From contig JAIUOS010000003.1 of assembly GCA_020161755.1 (NCBI GenBank), forward strand, positions 124,001-188,000: a DNA stretch of 64,000 bases. The letters are read 5' to 3'. A model generated the notes under the pieces. The model was not told the DNA's origin. It saw nothing but the letters and a program-made list of their open reading frames with translations, and did not search any database. The position numbers were made by a program, and so were the translations under genes. Below, piece by piece: positions 14,520 to 28,242 of this stretch (within the stretch, counting starts at the first letter, position 1; every line of letters begins with the position of its first letter). The DNA is from Actinomycetota bacterium. GTDB lineage: Bacteria; Actinomycetota; Actinomycetes; Propionibacteriales; Propionibacteriaceae.

Positions 14520-16280
14520 TCAACGCGCCCGCTGGACGCGCCCCTCCTGCCAGACGGGCTCGTCGGGCTCGTAGACGGTGCCGTCGGCACCGAAGACCAG
14601 GAAGCGATCGAAGCCGCGGGCGAACCACCGGTCGTGGGTGACGGCCAGGACGGTGCCCTCGAACGCGGCGAGACCGTCCTCGAGGGCCTCGGCGGACTGC
14701 ACGTCGAGGTTGTCGGTGGGCTCGTCGAGCAGCAGCATCGTGGCGCCGGACAGCTCCAGCAGCAGGATCTGGAACCGGGCCTGCTGCCCGCCGGACAGCA
14801 CCTCGAAGCGCTGCTCGGCGGCGGCCGACAGTTCGTAGCGGTCGAGGACGCGGCTGGCCTGCTCGCGTCCCATGCCGACGCGGCCGCGTCCGTCCGGGGT
14901 GGCGTCGCCGCGGTGCAGGATCTGCAACAGGGTCCGTCCGACGAGTTCGGGGTGCTCGTGGGTCTGGACGAACCAGCCCGGACGCACCCGGGCGCCGAGC
15001 CGCGCGCGTCCGGTGTGTTCGACCGGGGCGATGGCGCCGGGCTCCCCCACCGGCTCGTGCTCGAGGTCGGGCAGGGAACCGCCGGCGGCCAGGAGGCGCA
15101 GGAAGTGGGACTTGCCGGACCCGTTCGAGCCGAGGACGGCGACGCGCTCGCCGTACCAGACCTCCAGGTCGAAGGGCCTCATCAGTACCGACGACCCGCC
15201 GGACTCCCCCGGCGGGAGCCGCAGTTCGAGCTGTTCACAGACGAGCGCGCGCTTCGCGGTGCGTCCGCCACGGAGCCGGATGGCGACCTTCTGCTCCAGG
15301 GGCTGCTCGGCCGGCGGACCGGCCTCCTCGAACTTGCGCAGCCGGGTCTGGGCGGCCTGGTAGCGGCTGGCCATGCCGTCGTTGTAGGTCGCCTTCTGCT
15401 TGAGGGTGAGGACGAGGGTCTTGAGCTTGGCGTGCTCCTCGTCCCAGCGGCGACGCAGCTCGTCGAACCGCTCGAAGCGCGCGCGGCGGGCGTCGTGGTA
15501 GCTGCCGAAACCGCCGGGGTGCGTCCACACCCGGTTGCCGCCGGCGCCGAGTTCGACGGTGACGACGCGGGTGGCGGTGTTGGCGAGCAGCTCGCGGTCG
15601 TGGGAGATGAACAGGATGGTCTTGGACGACTCGTTGATGCGCTCCTCGAGCCAGGTCTTGGCGGGGACGTCGAGGTAGTTGTCGGGCTCGTCGAGGAGCA
15701 GCACCTCGTCGGGTCCGCGCAGGAGGTACTCCAGGACGAGGCGCTTCTGCTCGCCGCCCGACAGCGTGCGCAGCGAGCGGTAGCGGGCCCGGTCGTAGCC
15801 GACGCCGAGGGCGCTGGTGGTGACGACGTCCCACACCACCTCGAGGTCGTAACCCCCGGCGTCCGCGTACTCGGCGAGGGCTTCGGCGTAGCGGAGCTGG
15901 GTGTCGAGGTCGTCGGTCTCCATGAGCAGGCGCTCGCACTCGTCGACGGACGCGGCGGCGGCGCGGACGCGGGCCGGCGCCACCGAGAGCAGGAGGTCGG
16001 CGACGGTCGGGTCGTCACCGCCGGAGCCGCCCTCGACTACGCCCTGGCCGACGAACTGGCGCATCACGCCGAGCCCGCCCGAGCGGGTCACCGCCCCGGC
16101 GTGCGGGTCGAGGTCGCCGGTGATGATGCGCAGCAGGGTCGTCTTGCCGGCCCCGTTCGCGCCGACCAGGGCCACCTTCGCGCCCTCGCCGATGCGGAAC
16201 GACACCTCGTCGAGGAGGACGCGCCCGTCCGGCAGCTCGTAGCGCACCCCGGCGACATCCACGTGACCCACGCGGGTCAC
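14520..16280 (-). CDS. ABC-F family ATPase
   Basis: A 586-aa cytoplasmic protein with two ABC cassettes in one chain and no membrane segments. The first has Walker A GANGAGKTT (about 40-47), signature LSGGEQKRL and Walker B LLLDEPDNYLD. The second has GSNGSGKSH, LSGGQQARF and LLLDEPTDNLD. The linker between them is charged and helical. ABC-F proteins bind the ribosomal E site, acting in translation control or antibiotic protection; which applies here cannot be told. Start candidates are GTG 16280, 16271 and 16262. The upstream gap holds a GGGGACGGTTCC palindrome. Confidence 0.88.
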   Translation of the reverse strand: MTRVGHVDVAGVRYELPDGRVLLDEVSFRIGEGAKVALVGANGAGKTTLLRIITGDLDPHAGAVTRSGGLGVMRQFVGQGVVEGGSGGDDPTVADLLLSVAPARVRAAAASVDECERLLMETDDLDTQLRYAEALAEYADAGGYDLEVVWDVVTTSALGVGYDRARYRSLRTLSGGEQKRLVLEYLLRGPDEVLLLDEPDNYLDVPAKTWLEERINESSKTILFISHDRELLANTATRVVTVELGAGGNRVWTHPGGFGSYHDARRARFERFDELRRRWDEEHAKLKTLVLTLKQKATYNDGMASRYQAAQTRLRKFEEAGPPAEQPLEQKVAIRLRGGRTAKRALVCEQLELRLPPGESGGSSVLMRPFDLEVWYGERVAVLGSNGSGKSHFLRLLAAGGSLPDLEHEPVGEPGAIAPVEHTGRARLGARVRPGWFVQTHEHPELVGRTLLQILHRGDATPDGRGRVGMGREQASRVLDRYELSAAAEQRFEVLSGGQQARFQILLLELSGATMLLLDEPTDNLDVQSAEALEDGLAAFEGTVLAVTHDRWFARGFDRFLVFGADGTVYEPDEPVWQEGRVQRAR

Positions 16281-21699: not shown

Positions 21700-22158
21700 A
21701 TGGCACTCGAACCCCGCCTGGCAGCACTGGTCGGCACCTGGCGTGGCGCCGGCAAGGGCTCCTACCCCACGATCGCCGACTTCGCCTACACCGACGAGCT
21801 CACCTTCACCGACATCGGGAAACCGTTCCTGCACTTCGTCGAACGCACGTGGATCGACGGCGAACCGCGCCACACCGAGACCGGCTACTGGCGGATGCCG
21901 ACGCCCGACACCGTCGAGGTGGTGATCGCGATTCCCACCGGGCAGGCCGAGCGGGGCTCGGGCACGTGCCGGCTCGAGGCGGACGGCGTCCTCGTCCTTG
22001 AGATCGACTCGTCCGTGCAGTACACGCCCACCGCGAAGCAGGTCGACCGGATCGTGCGGACGCTGCACGTCGACGGCGACCGGATGCATCACGAGATGTT
22101 CATGGAGGCGGTCGGCCAGGGACTCACCCTGCACCTGGTCTCCGACCTCACGCGGTGA
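21700..22158 (+). CDS. nitrobindin-type heme-binding beta-barrel protein
   Basis: The 152-aa protein shows the nitrobindin family motif GTWRGAGKGSYPTI at residues 12-25. FGKPFLH-like DIGKPFLHFVERTWI, HTETGYWRMPTPD and a C-terminal HHEMFMEAV with the likely proximal histidine also fit. Nitrobindins bind ferric heme in a ten-strand barrel and can react with nitric oxide or peroxynitrite. The length fits. It lies back to back with the unknown membrane protein at 20951 and ends four bases before the convergent AhpD-like gene. Confidence 0.87.
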   Translation: MALEPRLAALVGTWRGAGKGSYPTIADFAYTDELTFTDIGKPFLHFVERTWIDGEPRHTETGYWRMPTPDTVEVVIAIPTGQAERGSGTCRLEADGVLVLEIDSSVQYTPTAKQVDRIVRTLHVDGDRMHHEMFMEAVGQGLTLHLVSDLTR

Positions 22159-22162
22159 GCGG

Positions 22163-22708
22163 TCAGGCCTCCGGGATCGTGCAGAAGCCGGCCGGCTGGA
22201 TGCCCAGCGCCTGGATGGTGCGGGCCCAGCAGTTCACCTGCGCCGCCGTGGTCGCCAGGATGACGATCTCCCGCTCGTCGAACAGTTCGACGAGGTGGGC
22301 CTGGAGTTGCTCGTCGAACACCAGCGGGGTCGACGAGATCGCCCGCGCGTAGGCGATCGCCAGCCGTTCGCGGGCGTCGAAGCTCGCCACCGATTCCTCG
22401 GCGCCACGCTGGAGGGCGGCGAGTTCCGCGTCCGTCACGCCGGCCTCCCCCGCCTCGAAGCTGTTCATGTCGGCGCAGAACGCGCACGAGGCGGTGAGGG
22501 ACGCGGCCACGCGCACCAGCTTCAGGAGGCGTGGCGACGGCTCGCGGTGGGCGACGAGCGACTCCAGGACGCCGGCTCCGAGGGCGGCTCGTGGGTACCA
22601 GGCGAGGAGCCGGGCCGGTTCCATGCGGCGCCCGATGATGCGCTCGGACAGCGCAACCCCCAGGCGGAGGATCGGGTTGGGCCGGCGTGGTTCGGCGATG
22701 ATGGCCAT
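22163..22708 (-). CDS. AhpD-like / carboxymuconolactone-decarboxylase-family protein
   Basis: The 181-aa protein has the AhpD-type segment RVAASLTASCAFCADMNSFE with the redox pair C-x-x-C, followed by DARERLAIAYARAIS and VEL...TTAAQVNCWAR. Family members use the pair for peroxide or thiol-disulfide chemistry. ATG 22708 is preceded by AAGGATG. The palindromic operator at 22736-22751 lies 28 bp upstream and is shared with the divergent Cys-rich/rhodanese operon. This suggests a role in the same thiol/persulfide response (inference). Confidence 0.8.
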   Translation of the reverse strand: MAIIAEPRRPNPILRLGVALSERIIGRRMEPARLLAWYPRAALGAGVLESLVAHREPSPRLLKLVRVAASLTASCAFCADMNSFEAGEAGVTDAELAALQRGAEESVASFDARERLAIAYARAISSTPLVFDEQLQAHLVELFDEREIVILATTAAQVNCWARTIQALGIQPAGFCTIPEA

Positions 22709-22735
22709 GCGAGCATCCTTGCATTCATCGTTTCG

Positions 22736-22751
22736 ATACCCCAGGGGGTAT
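22736..22751. promoter_or_regulatory. CsoR/CstR-type operator with -10 (divergent promoter)
   Basis: ATACCCC-AG-GGGGTAT is a perfect 7-bp-arm palindrome. Its right end merges into TATAGT (22749-22754), a good -10 for the plus-strand operon starting at 22787. G/C tracts flanked by AT-rich ends are typical of CsoR/RcnR-family sites, including the persulfide sensor CstR. A near-copy lies at 25463-25478. Confidence 0.7.
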
Positions 22752-22786
22752 AGTTCGAGCCTAACCTCGGCGAAGGAGACCCCCGA

Positions 22787-22969
22787 ATGTGCAGTCCCAC
22801 CACTTGCAGGACCTGCGGCAAGACCACCTGGACGGGCTGCGGCCAGCACGTCGCGTCGGTCAAGGCACGGGTACCGGCCGACCAGTGGTGCGACGGGCAC
22901 GGCGCGTCCGCCCAGGCCGCGCCCACGGTGAAGGCCAACTCCGGGCTGTTCAAGATCCTCGGGCGATGA
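22787..22969 (+). CDS. 60-aa Cys-rich protein
   Basis: A small protein with cysteines at 2, 7, 10, 18 and 35 and histidines at 21 and 38, in the pattern C-x-x-C-G-K-T-T-W-x-G-C-G-x-H then W-C-x-G-H. A zinc-ribbon or metal/thiol-binding knuckle is likely. I recall similar small proteins in many actinobacteria but no assigned function. GAAGGAG lies 8 nt before ATG 22787. Its stop overlaps the rhodanese start (ATGA), and the CsoR-type operator and -10 lie just upstream, so it leads this operon. Confidence 0.75.
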   Translation: MCSPTTCRTCGKTTWTGCGQHVASVKARVPADQWCDGHGASAQAAPTVKANSGLFKILGR

Positions 22970-23400
22970 TGCGTCCGGCCCTGGCCGCGGCCCTGGCAGC
23001 CGTGACCATCCTGTTGTCCGGCTGCTCGGGCGGCAGCGTCAGCGTGACGTCCGGCCCCACGGCGTCCGCGGCCCCGGCGGCGGGCAGCAGCCTCGCGCCG
23101 GCCGAGTTCGCCGCCGCGGCCAAGCTGCCCGACACCGTCCTGCTCGACGTGCGGACGCCGGCGGAATTCGCGAGCGGCCACCTCCCCGGCGCGGTGAACC
23201 TGGACGTCCGGTCCGCGGACTTCTCGCAGGCCGCCGCGACGCTGGATCCCGGCAAGAACTACGCGGTCTACTGCCACAGCGGCAACCGCTCCAAGACCGC
23301 GATGGCGACGATGAGCCAGGCCGGCTTCACCCACCTGTACGACCTCGCCGGGGGCATCGGCGCGTGGCAGTCGGCCGGCGGCGAGGTGGTCACCGGATGA
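22966..23400 (+). CDS. rhodanese-domain lipoprotein
   Basis: The 144-aa product has a lipoprotein signal with lipobox LLSGC (Cys about residue 21), a short Ser/Ala/Pro linker and one rhodanese domain (about 45-140). The domain shows DVRTPAEFASGHLPGAVNLD and the active-site loop YCHSGNRSKTA with the persulfide-carrying cysteine. It would handle sulfane sulfur on the outer face of the membrane. It is coupled to the upstream Cys-rich gene and to the downstream membrane-protein gene by four-base overlaps, under the operator at 22736. Confidence 0.88.
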   Translation: MMRPALAAALAAVTILLSGCSGGSVSVTSGPTASAAPAAGSSLAPAEFAAAAKLPDTVLLDVRTPAEFASGHLPGAVNLDVRSADFSQAAATLDPGKNYAVYCHSGNRSKTAMATMSQAGFTHLYDLAGGIGAWQSAGGEVVTG

Positions 23401-23801
23401 CCCCACCGACGGTGCGAACGATCACGCTCCCCCGCCGCTCGGGCCTGGCAGCGCTCCGCGAGGGCTGGCTCCCCCGCCACACGGTGGCGATGGTCGTCCT
23501 GACGCCGGTGGTGTTCGTCGGCTACCTGGCCGCGCTGGGGGCCGGTTTCGACGGCCCGCTGTGGGTCGTGCTGATCGGCGCGATGGCGCCCGTCGCCGCC
23601 CTGATCCTGACCACCTACCTGCCGCTGCGCGGTGCCGGCCCGGCGACGGTGTCGTCGTGCATGGCGTTGACCGGCCTCCTGGTGCCCGGCGTCGGCATCC
23701 TGCTGAGCCAGGGCTCGGGGATCCTCAGCGGGGTGCTCGCGCTGGTCATCCTCGGAATCGGCCTGTGGCAGCGCGTGTCCGGAACGCCCGCCTGCGGGTA
23801 G
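23397..23801 (+). CDS. four-helix membrane protein of the rhodanese operon
   Basis: The 134-aa protein has a basic cytoplasmic N-terminus and about four hydrophobic helices (VAMVVLTPVVFVGYLAAL, WVVLIGAMAPVAALILTTYL and two more). I recognise no family motif. Its ATG overlaps the rhodanese stop (ATGA), so it belongs to the same operon. A role in membrane handling of sulfur species would be a guess. It ends 7 nt before the convergent 51-aa gene. Confidence 0.65.
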   Translation: MTPPTVRTITLPRRSGLAALREGWLPRHTVAMVVLTPVVFVGYLAALGAGFDGPLWVVLIGAMAPVAALILTTYLPLRGAGPATVSSCMALTGLLVPGVGILLSQGSGILSGVLALVILGIGLWQRVSGTPACG

Positions 23802-23808
23802 CCGCCGG

Positions 23809-23964
23809 CTAGTGGTGGCCCTTGACCACCATCCGCATGATCCGGCTGTTGAAGGCGAGGAAGCGGGTGAACTGGAACGGCAGGCTGCGCCGCATCCTCA
23901 GGGTCCTGGCGGTGGGCAGCGGCGCCTTCGACAGGTCCGCGACGGGTGTGCTCGGTGAGGTCAT
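23809..23964 (-). CDS. 51-aa basic protein downstream of SQR-like gene
   Basis: A short frame from ATG 23964 to TAG encodes 51 residues. The N-terminus is Thr/Pro-rich, followed by a basic, amphipathic segment (RMRRSLPFQFTRFLAFNSRI, MRMVVKGHH). GGAG lies 6 nt upstream, inside the end of the SQR-like gene, which stops only 3 nt before this ATG, so translation is probably coupled. It could be a small membrane-surface partner of the flavoprotein (inference). No homologue is named. Confidence 0.6.
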   Translation of the reverse strand: MTSPSTPVADLSKAPLPTARTLRMRRSLPFQFTRFLAFNSRIMRMVVKGHH

Positions 23965-23967
23965 GGG

Positions 23968-25422
23968 TCACTCCGGGATGAATTGCCAGCCGAGGCGGGC
24001 CTTGGCCTTGTAGATGAACAAGTAGTGGAGCATCAGCTTCACCCAGTGGCCGTGCACGCCGAGCTCGCCGCGCGTCTCGCGCTCGTCGCGTCCGGTCGGG
24101 TAGCGCTGGTAGTCGGGGACGACCGGCAGCATCGTCATCGCGGCCGCCGAGCCCTTCGTCAGCCCCGTGCCGGCGGACGCGACGCAGGCCGCGCCCATGC
24201 GGGCCATCGACGCGGTGTGCGCCGGCGCCGAGGAGCCGTGCTTGAGGCGGTCGGCGATCGTCAGGGCCACGGTCTTGCCCATCACCCCGGACGGCATCCC
24301 CGTCCGCGGCGGGGACGGGGCGACCAGCGTCCCGTTGGGTGTCTTGCGGGGACGCGAGATCTGGTGCGGCGGGGCGAACGCGATGCCGACCGCCCACACG
24401 TTGTCGTAGCCGGGGGCGGCGTACGTGGAGGGCCAGTCCTCCGCGCGCCACGCCTCGTAGGGCTTGACGGTGTAGTCGGCGTCCACCTTCATGAACCCGG
24501 ACGGGGCGAAGATCTCACCGGTGATGTCGGCACCGTCGGCGTCGTACGCCTTCAGCGCGACGCCACCGAACGGCGGGATCAGCATCGCGAAGTCGAAGCC
24601 GAGGGTGTGGCTCTCACCGTCGAGGGTCTCGTAGTGGATCAGGCCCTGCTCCACCTTCGAGACGTGGGCGCCGAGGATGGCCTCCACACCGCGTTCGCGG
24701 AACAGCGAGCCCGTCCACAGCTCGCTCGTGGTCTGGAAGCCCTGTTGGTCGAAGACCATGCCGTCCACGCCGAAGTCGCCCAGGGCCGCCTCGTTGGTGA
24801 GGTACACGACCCGGGCGAGATCGCGGACGCCGGCCTCGCGCAGTTCGTGGTCGACGTTGAACACGTACTCGAACGCCGCGCCCTCGCAGGTGCAGGTGCC
24901 GTGCCCCATACCGACGACGAGCGTCTGCGGCGTCCCCTGCTTCAGCACCTCGATCACCTCGCGGAGCCGGTGGTTCGCCTCGATGGCGTGGTCGGCGGTG
25001 CAGACGCTCTCGGTGAAGCCACCCGGCCCCATGCCCTCGGTGGCCTCGAACCGCAGCCGCGGACCGGTCGCGTTGATCAGGTAGTCGTAGCGCAGCATCT
25101 CGGTCGTGCCGGCTGCCTCCGGGCAGGTGTACTCGATGTCGACCGCGCCACGGGAGTCGTCCCGATCACCCTTCGGACGGATCGCGACGGCCTTCGCCTG
25201 GCGGAACCCGATGCCCTTGCGGGCGTACACCGGCGCCAGCGGGAAGACCACGTCCTTCTTCGCCATTTCGCCGACGCCCACCCAGATGTTGGACGGGATC
25301 CAGTTCCACTGTGAGTTGGGCGACACCACCGTGACGGTGTGTTCACGCCCCAACAGTCGCCGCAGGTGCAGCGCCGCGGTGTGACCCGAGACACCTGCTC
25401 CCAGAATGACGATCTCTGCCAT
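23968..25422 (-). CDS. sulfide:quinone oxidoreductase-like flavoprotein
   Basis: The 484-aa protein opens with the FAD-binding IVILGAGVSGHTAALHLRR and has a second dinucleotide motif around LVVGMGHGTC. FAD-contacting NATGP and late NVWAVGIA are also present. Cysteines at 141, 177, 179 and 413 include candidates for the redox pair of sulfide:quinone oxidoreductases. The C-terminus (WVKLMLHYLFIYKAKARLGW) resembles their membrane-docking tail. AGGAGGA precedes ATG 25422. A CsoR-type operator and TATGCT -10 lie 41-60 nt upstream. The exact SQR type is uncertain. Confidence 0.8.
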   Translation of the reverse strand: MAEIVILGAGVSGHTAALHLRRLLGREHTVTVVSPNSQWNWIPSNIWVGVGEMAKKDVVFPLAPVYARKGIGFRQAKAVAIRPKGDRDDSRGAVDIEYTCPEAAGTTEMLRYDYLINATGPRLRFEATEGMGPGGFTESVCTADHAIEANHRLREVIEVLKQGTPQTLVVGMGHGTCTCEGAAFEYVFNVDHELREAGVRDLARVVYLTNEAALGDFGVDGMVFDQQGFQTTSELWTGSLFRERGVEAILGAHVSKVEQGLIHYETLDGESHTLGFDFAMLIPPFGGVALKAYDADGADITGEIFAPSGFMKVDADYTVKPYEAWRAEDWPSTYAAPGYDNVWAVGIAFAPPHQISRPRKTPNGTLVAPSPPRTGMPSGVMGKTVALTIADRLKHGSSAPAHTASMARMGAACVASAGTGLTKGSAAAMTMLPVVPDYQRYPTGRDERETRGELGVHGHWVKLMLHYLFIYKAKARLGWQFIPE

Positions 25423-25462
25423 CACGACTCCTCCTGCCGGCCGCGTCGCCGACAGTTCGAGC

Positions 25463-25478
25463 ATACCCCCGGGGGTAC
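25463..25478. promoter_or_regulatory. second CsoR/CstR-type operator, at SQR-like promoter
   Basis: ATACCCC-CG-GGGGTAC contains the perfect palindrome TACCCCCGGGGGTA. On the minus strand it runs into TATGCT, a -10-like hexamer for the flavoprotein gene at 25422, exactly as the site at 22736 runs into TATAGT. Confidence 0.68.
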
Positions 25479-25516
25479 TGGTCGCGCAGGTGGAACGAGG
25501 TTCTGCCCGGACATGC

Positions 25517-27447: not shown

Positions 27448-28242
27448 ATGACCGCCCCAGCCCTTGTAATGGTGGCTCGAGGCAGCTCCGACCCCATGGT
27501 CGCGCAGGTGACACACCAGCTCGTCCACGGCCTGGCGCAGATGCGCCCCGAGATGAGCGTTTCCGGAGCCTTCCTCCAGTCCAGCCCGCCCACCGCCGGT
27601 CAGGTCATCGACCAGCTCGCGGCCGCCGGCGTCAACGAGGTCGTCCTCGTCCCGCTCCAGATCACCCACGCGGTCGAGTGCGACCCCGCCATGAGCGACC
27701 TGCTGCACCGCTCGCGCAACAACTACCCCGACCTGCGCTTCACTCTCTCCCGGCCGATCGGCCCCGAGCTGAGCCTGCTCACCGTCCTCGACCAGCGCCT
27801 GCGCGCCTCGCTCAGCCAGGCCCGCTGCCTCGAGCTCGACGGCCTCGTGCTCTCCGCCGGCTGCGCCGGCGACGTCCGCGGCAGCGCCCTGCTGGCCCGC
27901 CGCGCCCGCCAGTGGTCCACCCACCACCGGCTCCCCTGCCTCACCGCCGTCGCCGACGACTCCGGCCCGTCCGTCGCCCAGGCGATCATGGGGCTGCGCG
28001 CCCAGGGACGCCGGCACATCGCGGTCGGCTCGTTCTTCCTCAGCGCGGACGAGGCGTACCACGCCCAGTCCGACGTCGCGTACCGGTACGGCGCGGTCTC
28101 CGTCAGCGACCCGATCGGCGCCTCCCGTGAGGTCCTCGACCTCGTCCTGGCGCGCTACGCCTTCGCCGCCATGGACCTGCTCGACTTCGGTGGCGACGAA
28201 CTCGTCGAGCCGGTGCCCCACCTGAGCGTGGTCAGCGCCTGA
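27448..28242 (+). CDS. CbiX/SirB-like sirohydrochlorin chelatase
   Basis: The 264-aa protein has two similar chelatase halves. The first begins ALVMVARGSSDP and contains VVLVPLQITHAVEC; the second contains LVLSAGCAGDVRGS and HIAVGSFFLSADEAY. In this class II chelatase family paired histidine/glutamate residues insert Fe2+ or Co2+ into sirohydrochlorin for siroheme or cobalamin. AGGAAGG precedes ATG 27448. The 237-nt upstream region (27211-27447) is noticeably AT-richer than its surroundings and holds no gene, suggesting regulation at this promoter. No other siroheme or sulfate-reduction genes are adjacent. Confidence 0.8.
   Translation: MTAPALVMVARGSSDPMVAQVTHQLVHGLAQMRPEMSVSGAFLQSSPPTAGQVIDQLAAAGVNEVVLVPLQITHAVECDPAMSDLLHRSRNNYPDLRFTLSRPIGPELSLLTVLDQRLRASLSQARCLELDGLVLSAGCAGDVRGSALLARRARQWSTHHRLPCLTAVADDSGPSVAQAIMGLRAQGRRHIAVGSFFLSADEAYHAQSDVAYRYGAVSVSDPIGASREVLDLVLARYAFAAMDLLDFGGDELVEPVPHLSVVSA

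Follow-up and report, generated by a model that had tools for sequence, protein, structure and literature searches.

Two palindromes with the same core, TACCCC-N2-GGGGTA, lie among sulfur- and thiol-related genes in the 64-kb stretch of DNA analyzed here (the window). This raises the question of which repressor would read them and which genes it would control. In the cst operon of Staphylococcus aureus, rhodaneses are controlled by a persulfide repressor of the CsoR family. The analysis indicates that both palindromes are very likely (probability about 0.88) operators of a CstR-type repressor (CsoR/DUF156) encoded elsewhere in the genome and belong to a dispersed persulfide regulon.

Operators and genes of the window

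The original prediction described two same-core palindromes, each running into a -10-like hexamer. Both were located, with the hexamers TATAGT and TATGCT, and the genes are arranged as it had proposed (Table 1). No further exact palindrome is present in the 64-kb window. When up to two mismatches were allowed, four matches were counted against a mean of 1.34 in shuffled sequences; as 4 of 100 shuffles also reached four, this relaxed count is by itself weak evidence. In Streptomyces coelicolor, the 16-bp form ATACC-n6-GGTAT is the operator published for the persulfide-sensing ScCsoR (PMC7533328). Operator 2 departs from this form by one base, as does the site of the second SQR gene (SQR2). By eye, no convincing -35 element accompanies the TATAGT hexamer at operator 1. 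The SQR start codon lies 56 bp downstream of the beginning of operator 2.

Table 1. Features of the window and one-mismatch sites elsewhere in the genome
Feature	Position	Strand	Remarks
AhpD-like (CMD family) protein	22163..22708	-	transcribed divergently from operator 1; regulon membership unlikely
Operator 1, ATACCCCAGGGGGTAT	22736..22751	.	exact ATACC-N6-GGTAT; exact TACCCC-N2-GGGGTA at 22737-22750
Putative -10 hexamer TATAGT	22749..22754	+	overlaps right arm of operator 1; by consensus resemblance only
60-aa Cys-rich protein	22787..22969	+	undescribed family; first of the operon after operator 1
Rhodanese lipoprotein	22966..23400	+	PF00581, 74.6 bits; lipobox LLSGC and loop CHSGNRS (by eye)
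134-aa predicted membrane protein (by eye)	23397..23801	+	overlaps rhodanese gene
51-aa protein	23809..23964	-	3 bases after SQR gene
SQR-like (sulfide:quinone oxidoreductase-like) flavoprotein, 484 aa	23968..25422	-	Cys141, Cys179 and Cys413 aligned to cysteines of solved SQR 3hyv
Putative -10 hexamer TATGCT	25460..25465	-	overlaps operator 2; from sequence only
Operator 2, minus-strand read GTACCCCCGGGGGTAT	25463..25478	.	one off ATACC-N6-GGTAT; exact TACCCC-N2-GGGGTA at 25464-25477
One-mismatch site	C24		ahead of trx-cstR
One-mismatch site	C14:20125		ahead of SQR2-DsrC
One-mismatch sites	C6:7053, C14:53376		inside called genes
One-mismatch sites	C6:44638, C19:67014, C28:46710		intergenic
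One-mismatch site	C6:33032		exact ATACC-N6-GGTAT; upstream of flavoprotein/ferredoxin-type and pyruvate:ferredoxin-oxidoreductase-type genes

Overlaps of 4 bases each join the 60-aa open reading frame to the rhodanese gene and the latter to the membrane-protein gene. The 134-aa membrane protein has no match in Pfam or NCBIfam. In Micropruina glycogenica and in genomes G039 and G064, genes for relatives follow that of the rhodanese lipoprotein, with a thioredoxin gene in between in M. glycogenica and G039.

The flavoprotein has the SQR fold by its profile match to 3hyv (E 5.6e-68), and its three aligned cysteines correspond to residues of 3hyv that we take to be the catalytic ones of SQR; C179 and C413 are invariant in six aligned sequences. 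It misses the NCBIfam SQR cut-off (best 55.8 against 525 bits, for the type III selenoprotein exception model). The 51-aa follower is matched neither in Pfam nor in NCBIfam. A relative of it is found at all 17 SQR loci of the genus, own locus included, and at 15 of the 17 relatives of both CstR and thioredoxin are encoded within about 1.5 kb.

A CstR-like repressor and its probable sites

The repressor gene was expected to lie outside the window. Three CsoR-family genes were indeed found in the genome (a 4.08-Mb draft of 61 contigs; completeness 95.94%, contamination 3.66%), and none of them is on the contig of the window. One product, that of C24, has the two conserved cysteines anticipated: it displays the CstR fingerprint C35-G60-C64, lacking the copper-ligand His four residues before the second Cys. 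Its two paralogues are of the copper type, with C-H-C instead of C-G-C. The C24 protein matches PF02583 (DUF156/CsoR fold) with 82.7 bits for a cut-off of 22.8, and its NCBIfam matches stay below cut-off (RicR, 46.6/175 bits; FrmR, 32.3/133). It scores alike against the copper CsoR 4m1p (E 2.2e-11) and against 7mq1 (E 2.3e-11), deposited as csoR and presumably the CstR of Enterococcus faecalis. Plain scores do not separate CstR from CsoR here, and it is by its Cys/His fingerprint and by the operators that the protein is assigned to CstR. Among the loci gathered here, every one of the 98 distinct CstR-like sequences scoring 62 bits or more has C-(G/A/S)-C, and C-H-C is confined to the two copper-type proteins of this genome.

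The genome search for TACCCC-N2-GGGGTA suggested by the original prediction returned four exact sites, for about 0.47 predicted from base composition, each directly upstream of a sulfur or thiol gene. They are the two operators of the window and the sites of a CoA-persulfide-reductase/rhodanese gene and of a second 60-aa Cys-rich protein gene. With up to one mismatch, 12 sites were found against 1 for a backwards control pattern; the eight with one mismatch are given in Table 1. The cstR gene itself is encoded behind a thioredoxin gene and a near-copy of the operator; operators of the ATACC-n6-GGTAT type are present both at target promoters and at the repressor's own operon.

The CoA-persulfide reductase (C27) combines PF07992, PF02852 and a C-terminal PF00581, a CoADR-RHD fusion. 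It matches 3icr over nearly its full length (E 3.4e-169), followed by 8a56 (E 1.9e-167), which we take to be the solved CoA-persulfide reductase of E. faecalis. With 433.2 bits, it remains below the 578.8-bit equivalog cut-off of TIGR03385 for CoA-disulfide reductase.

The palindromes are conserved upstream of orthologous genes. In a search of 30 genomes of the genus, own copies included, a site precedes SQR at 16 of 17 loci, the SQR2-DsrC pair at 8 of 8 (seven with one mismatch) and CoA-persulfide-reductase-like genes at 23 of 29, one further match having been dropped for too little upstream sequence. All 18 reductase-like loci of at least 70% identity have the site, and the six that lack it are at most 50% identical. 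Across the orthologues, the arms of the footprint are constant and the N6 is variable. Gene calls in relatives come from a simple script, with no annotation pipeline. That the operator is shared, where it lies and that it is conserved are established from the sequence, and the placement and conservation appear consistent with control by CstR of rhodanese, SQR and CoA-persulfide reductase genes. Most of the genes scattered in this genome form one cluster in M. glycogenica, comprising the CoA-persulfide reductase, SQR and its follower, two CstR, the membrane protein, thioredoxin, the rhodanese lipoprotein and the small protein.

The small Cys-rich protein and the extent of the proposed regulon

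In 69 sequences of the small protein, C2, C7, C10, C18, H21 and C35 are invariant, within the motif MC-x-P-x2-C-x2-CGKTTW-x-GCGQH-...-QWC-x-GH. The second copy in the same genome, a 60%-identical paralogue, lies behind another operator. Scanning the 69 members against Pfam and NCBIfam identified no described family (cut-offs were shown for the first member only), the best sub-threshold scores being E 0.0014 for DUF5651 and E 0.0034 for an LRP1-type zinc finger. A profile search of the PDB gave a cerato-platanin-like protein at best (E 0.0088). Plasmid records held no match, and no description of the protein was recognized by title or start of abstract in open-licence PMC literature. The AlphaFold2 model (mean pLDDT 70.9, pTM 0.42) is a predicted strand-strand-helix with CxxC and CxxH. 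As Foldseek retrieved nothing from the PDB at E ≤ 0.001, no fold is claimed.

Of 86 small-protein loci (matches with E ≤ 1.5e-10, the genome's own two included), 44 have a same-form site in the 250 bp upstream. Control windows had exact sites in 35 of 1720 cases and sites with up to one mismatch in 48 of 1720; being drawn from the same loci, they may hold true neighbouring operators. Among the 42 loci without a site, a CstR gene is nearby in the fetched stretch in 19 and absent from it in 23. CstR is linked to the small protein at 48 of 80 named loci, these being the best 80 of at least 568 confirmed, including related genomes and seemingly near-identical cassettes. The small protein is not strictly tied to CstR, as carriers without a CstR match exist, numbering 13 of 87 for the family and 11 of 36 for a survey of the phylum. 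The CstR cut-offs were author-chosen: E ≤ 2e-14 for the family, with a gap beneath it (next match, 4e-12), and E ≤ 1e-12 for the phylum, without such a gap, so that some of the 88 matches may be other CsoR-family proteins. The 36 carriers among 296 phylum genomes, some of them related, may be an undercount, as scoring was limited to 21 first-look candidates per genome. Fisher and Mann-Whitney values for the family and phylum counts carry no kinship correction. A MnmA/cysteine-desulfurase neighbourhood was dropped as a clue, 1 of 160 loci being too few.

The small CxxC...CxxH family is strongly associated with the CstR regulon in actinobacteria, as a new part of the system. It is tentatively proposed that these proteins form a new, probably zinc-binding thiol family for sulfane-sulfur homeostasis in Actinomycetota, widespread and unnamed in the CstR regulon, and that they may act as soluble acceptors or carriers, passing persulfide sulfur among rhodanese, thioredoxin and CoA-persulfide reductase. 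Alternatively, they could be nucleic-acid-binding proteins of the zinc-finger type, or structural proteins, and mere passengers of the operon, which would fit the weak likeness to zinc-finger families and the predicted CxxC- and CxxH-bearing strand-strand-helix. This is the less probable explanation, as the recurrent linkage to CstR, the presence of own operators and the occurrence of two copies here argue for a role in sulfane-sulfur handling.

The AhpD-like gene had been counted in a single sulfide/persulfide regulon with the other genes. Its start codon is 27 bp from operator 1 and its product carries a CxxC motif (SCAFCADMN, by eye), as a divergent member might. Of 14 relatives found in the genus, 10 could be checked (for three no locus was obtained, and the upstream sequence of one was too short); none of the 10 has a site, and they sit elsewhere. 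None of the best 80 of at least 568 confirmed small-protein loci has an AhpD relative nearby. As the site is not conserved upstream, the gene was dropped from the regulon, and its membership is considered unlikely. The remainder of the single-regulon proposal is strengthened by the CstR-like gene, the conserved sites and the match to a published operator. The proposed regulon also extends beyond the window, to the CoA-persulfide reductase, thioredoxin, probably the SQR2-DsrC pair and the second small-protein copy.

Probable regulator, proposed mechanism and related circuits

It is very unlikely that the operators belong to a copper-type CsoR and that the genes respond to copper or thiol stress, even though CsoR-family operators resemble one another, the C24 repressor scores equally against a copper CsoR structure, and the two C-H-C csoR genes adjoin CopZ-like and copper-ATPase-like genes (neighbours named by eye). 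No ATACC-N6-GGTAT-like site (up to one mismatch, G/C-rich spacer) was found around the copper-type csoR genes, in the whole of L019 and in L016 from position 16000 on. The trx-cstR operon is itself preceded by a site, and the targets are sulfur genes. Moreover, the number of sites follows CstR: in the family set, which includes related genomes, the 81 genomes with CstR hold 307 sites against 3 for the backwards control, and the 36 without CstR, 25 of which keep a weak CsoR-type match, hold 24 against 13 (3.79 and 0.67 sites per genome, respectively). Chance matches or hairpins of a G+C-rich genome (71% in the window), where two-mismatch matches are common and roughly half an exact site is expected, are hardly credible in view of the position and arms conserved around a changing N6 core upstream of orthologues, and of the total of 331 sites against 16 for the control in 117 family genomes.

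The switches of the window very probably belong to a genome-wide set that turns on reactive-sulfur genes under CstR. We infer that, at low persulfide or polysulfide, reduced CstR would occupy ATACC-N6-GGTAT over the putative -10 hexamer and shut out RNA polymerase. Rising sulfane sulfur would modify the cysteine pair of the repressor, which would leave the DNA, inducing the dispersed regulon. The induced genes would be those of SQR and its 51-aa partner; the operon of the Cys-rich protein, exported rhodanese and membrane protein; the second Cys-rich copy; the CoA-persulfide reductase with its rhodanese domain; thioredoxin-CstR; and probably the second SQR with its DsrC-like carrier. Their joint task would be to oxidize sulfide, to transfer sulfane sulfur among carriers and to reduce CoA persulfide and protein persulfides.

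The system is of a known kind, a CstR-type persulfide regulon. It shares with the ScCsoR circuit, as described in PMC7533328, an actinobacterial two-Cys CsoR-like repressor and an operator of the same form, as well as autoregulation and control of a rhodanese, both predicted here from the position of the sites. The circuit outlined in that source consists of four genes (PDO, TauE-like exporter, CsoR and rhodanese) and includes no SQR, whereas the regulon proposed here is dispersed and has SQR, CoA-persulfide reductase, thioredoxin, exported rhodanese and the small Cys-rich protein; the published chemistry of ScCsoR and CstR also differs. As in the CstR regulon of E. faecalis (PMC9405070), a persulfide repressor of the CsoR family would here preside over rhodaneses and a CoA-persulfide reductase, but the small Cys-rich protein, the lipid-anchored rhodanese and the SQR follower are not named in the available portion of that account. 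TTHA1953 of Thermus thermophilus, likewise of the CsoR family, is described as regulating sulfur oxidation genes that lie at a distance from its own gene, although its operator, TACNNTACNNNNGTANNGTA, and its Sox gene targets differ (PMC10318464).

These results suggest that a CstR regulon in actinobacteria can be scattered over the genome and cover more than the Streptomyces circuit, extending here to sulfide oxidation, CoA-persulfide reduction, an exported rhodanese and DsrC. With the ATACC-N6-GGTAT rule, candidate members of the regulon can be predicted from sequence in genomes that encode CstR. A first functional handle is also provided on a small-protein family that has hundreds of actinobacterial relatives and is unnamed in Pfam and NCBIfam.

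Operators in the window and elsewhere in the genome

The best reading of the data is a CstR-type persulfide regulon in this actinobacterium, CstR being a persulfide-sensing repressor of the CsoR family. Exact TACCCC-N2-GGGGTA palindromes occur exactly twice in the whole window, at 22737–22750 (operator 1, ATACCCCAGGGGGTAT as a 16-mer read toward the gene) and 25464–25477 (operator 2, GTACCCCCGGGGGTAT), which run on into the −10-like hexamers TATAGT and TATGCT, respectively. Operator 1 is followed by three overlapping genes, and operator 2 by a gene resembling those of sulfide:quinone oxidoreductases (SQR) and then a short gene. Re-reading of the window confirmed the palindromes, hexamers and flanking genes as they were described in the original prediction.

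Genes behind the two operators of the window
Product	Coordinates	Position
60-aa Cys-rich protein	22787-22969	behind operator 1
Rhodanese with lipobox	22966-23400	behind operator 1
Predicted 134-aa membrane protein	23397-23801	behind operator 1
SQR-like flavoprotein	25422-23968	behind operator 2
51-aa SQR follower	23964-23809	behind operator 2

The 51-aa follower has no family match; its relatives that adjoin SQR keep a C-terminal NSRIMRMVVKGHH-like stretch. A nitrobindin-like gene (THAP4 heme-binding, PF08768) lies beside the gene group of operator 1 at 21700–22158, and in Micropruina glycogenica a relative of it is found next to the gene for the small protein, the sole case in 80 named loci (the best 80 of at least 568). 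Near the sulfur genes is also a CbiX-family gene (sirohydrochlorin/cobalt chelatase-like, PF01903, 75 bits) at 27448–28242.

The 4.08-Mb draft genome contains only four exact sites, as compared with about 0.47 predicted from base composition. The contig 27 site has, at a distance of 12 bp, the start codon of a gene encoding a 551-aa CoA-disulfide-reductase/rhodanese fusion; for the contig 38 site the distance is 34 bp, and the gene encodes a 58-aa paralogue of the Cys-rich protein (60% identical). Contig 24 carries TACCCCCTAGGGTA, with one mismatch to the core; a thioredoxin gene, with a CsoR-family gene behind it, has its start codon 18 bp from this site. On contig 14, 34 bp separate another one-mismatch site from the start codon of a second SQR gene, which precedes a DsrC/TusE-like gene. 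The persulfide-sensing ScCsoR of Streptomyces coelicolor targets the 16-bp sequence ATACC-n6-GGTAT (PMC7533328). Operator 1 and the sites of contigs 27, 38 and 24 match this sequence exactly; in operator 2 and in the site of contig 14, 9 of the 10 fixed positions agree.

Another exact ATACC-N6-GGTAT, ATACCACCCGGGGTAT, is found at about 33032 of contig 6 (L017:8032-8047). The gene that starts 103 bp away encodes a flavoprotein with Fer4 domains (Pyr_redox_2, Fer4_20) and is itself followed by a POR-family pyruvate:ferredoxin-oxidoreductase-type gene. This locus is a possible further member of the regulon. A DUF302 gene of contig 19 (L024:7198-7605) lies about 170 bp past a weak one-mismatch core site. 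Genes of this family (PF03625) adjoin CstR in some relatives, at L080 and L082 (confirmed with Pfam) and at L061 and L069 (by eye), and may also belong to the regulon.

The putative repressor and the enzymes

The repressor had been predicted to be encoded outside the window. Three CsoR-family genes were found in the genome, none of them within the window. Two encode copper-type proteins (C-H-C); from neighbours named by eye, one gene adjoins a CopZ-like gene and the other lies between copper-ATPase-like genes. The third, on contig 24 after the thioredoxin gene, bears out the prediction, as its product keeps both cysteines, with Gly replacing the copper-ligand His. From the loci examined, 98 distinct CstR-like sequences score 62 bits or more, and every one of them has the pattern C-(G/A/S)-C; C-H-C was encountered at these loci only in the two copper-type proteins of this genome. 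By score alone, the contig 24 protein is equally close to a copper CsoR structure and to 7mq1, which we take to be the CstR of E. faecalis; its RicR and FrmR matches in NCBIfam are both sub-threshold. A predicted CsoR-family repressor with the CstR fingerprint is present, with a site at its own operon. It would bind the operators and repress through promoter occlusion, with persulfide as the probable inducer.

The contig 27 protein aligns over nearly its full length with 3icr (CoA-disulfide reductase, E 3.4e-169) and 8a56 (CoA-persulfide reductase, E 1.9e-167), and is below the CoA-disulfide-reductase equivalog cut-off. The E. faecalis CoA-persulfide reductase is described as being under CstR control (PMC9405070). 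Residues 3–473 of the window SQR-like protein align with the SQR 3hyv, placing C141, C179 and C413 opposite cysteines of the latter; its score is far under the curated NCBIfam cut-off for SQR, so that no subtype is given. The contig 14 SQR is above the type III SQR cut-off (597.1 vs 525 bits), as is its neighbour above that of the TusE/DsrC subfamily (64.1 vs 53.5; L022:3284-5140 for the pair).

Conservation of the sites and gene clusters in relatives

Sites were sought up to 200 bp upstream of the genes in 30 genomes of the genus, the copies of the present genome being counted. The predicted palindromes are conserved upstream of orthologues: 16 of 17 loci for SQR, 23 of 29 for the CoA-persulfide-reductase-like gene (one extra match, without upstream sequence, was left uncounted), and 8 of 8 for the second SQR with DsrC, seven of them with one mismatch. 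Where the CoA-persulfide-reductase-like protein is at least 70% identical, the site is present in 18 of 18 cases; the six proteins without site are all at most 50% identical. The N6 spacer changes while the arms are constant. The proposed membership of the AhpD-like gene was not upheld: none of the 10 relatives checked (14 found) has a site, which is confined to the window's copy. The putative operator is common to the loci of the sulfur genes, at a conserved position and with sulfur-enzyme neighbours.

In 117 genomes of the family, the pattern was found 331 times, and its backwards version, used as a control, 16 times. Of these hits, 307 vs 3 fall to the 81 genomes in which CstR is matched (E ≤ 2e-14), and 24 vs 13 to the other 36.

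A single stretch of Micropruina glycogenica (L098, one and the same place as L085, handle G040) contains genes for CoA-persulfide reductase, SQR with a 55-aa follower, two CstR, a membrane protein, thioredoxin, the rhodanese lipoprotein, the small protein and a nitrobindin-like protein, with operators between them. The two organisms belong to the same survey family, of the order Propionibacteriales; NCBI files Micropruina under Nocardioidaceae. Three other family genomes (G020, G024 and G037) have the order CoA-persulfide reductase, operator, small protein, CstR. Relatives of CstR and thioredoxin are both within about 1.5 kb of SQR at 15 of the 17 genus loci, and the small follower is present at all 17. 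From this comparison, the genes that are scattered in the present genome resemble parts of a single module.

The small cysteine-rich protein

The small protein has no naming family in Pfam or NCBIfam, and a search for structural relatives yielded none convincing. Residues C2, C7, C10, W15, C18, H21, W34 and C35 are invariant in 69 aligned sequences. The C-terminal tail of the protein often closes with GGFFxRLFGR. The predicted model, of moderate confidence, is strand-strand-helix; its CxxC falls between the strands and its CxxH where the helix begins, which suggests a zinc site.

The protein is present in 87 of the 117 family genomes and 36 of 296 phylum genomes. At least 568 relatives were confirmed in named genomes; the best 80 are all actinobacterial judging from their titles. 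In the 250 bp upstream of the gene, a site is present in 44 of the 86 loci of the family (38 exact), vs 48 of 1720 control windows; the distance between the start codon and the beginning of the site is 37–128 bp, with a median of about 58. A CstR gene is in the fetched stretch of 19 of the 42 loci without site. Of the best 80 loci in named genomes, a site is present at 39 (31 exact), and the flank includes a CstR match at 48. The small protein and CstR occur together in 74 family genomes (small protein only, 13; CstR only, 7; neither, 23) and in 25 phylum genomes (11, 63 and 197, respectively), indicating that the small protein usually, not always, travels with CstR.

In one of 160 loci (L190:965-3894, from a genome without CstR match), the small protein is behind a gene pair for cysteine desulfurase and the tRNA thiolase MnmA. 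A variant at L212:962-1117 differs in its second half (QALAGVPDEQRCAGH) and may mark a wider subfamily without tie to CstR.

The small protein may act as a sulfane-sulfur acceptor or carrier, its likeliest role at moderate confidence. No description of the family was found in the literature, judged by titles or the start of abstracts. As a kind, the CstR-type persulfide regulon is already known; what is new is the dispersed make-up of the actinobacterial regulon and, above all, this undescribed family of small proteins.
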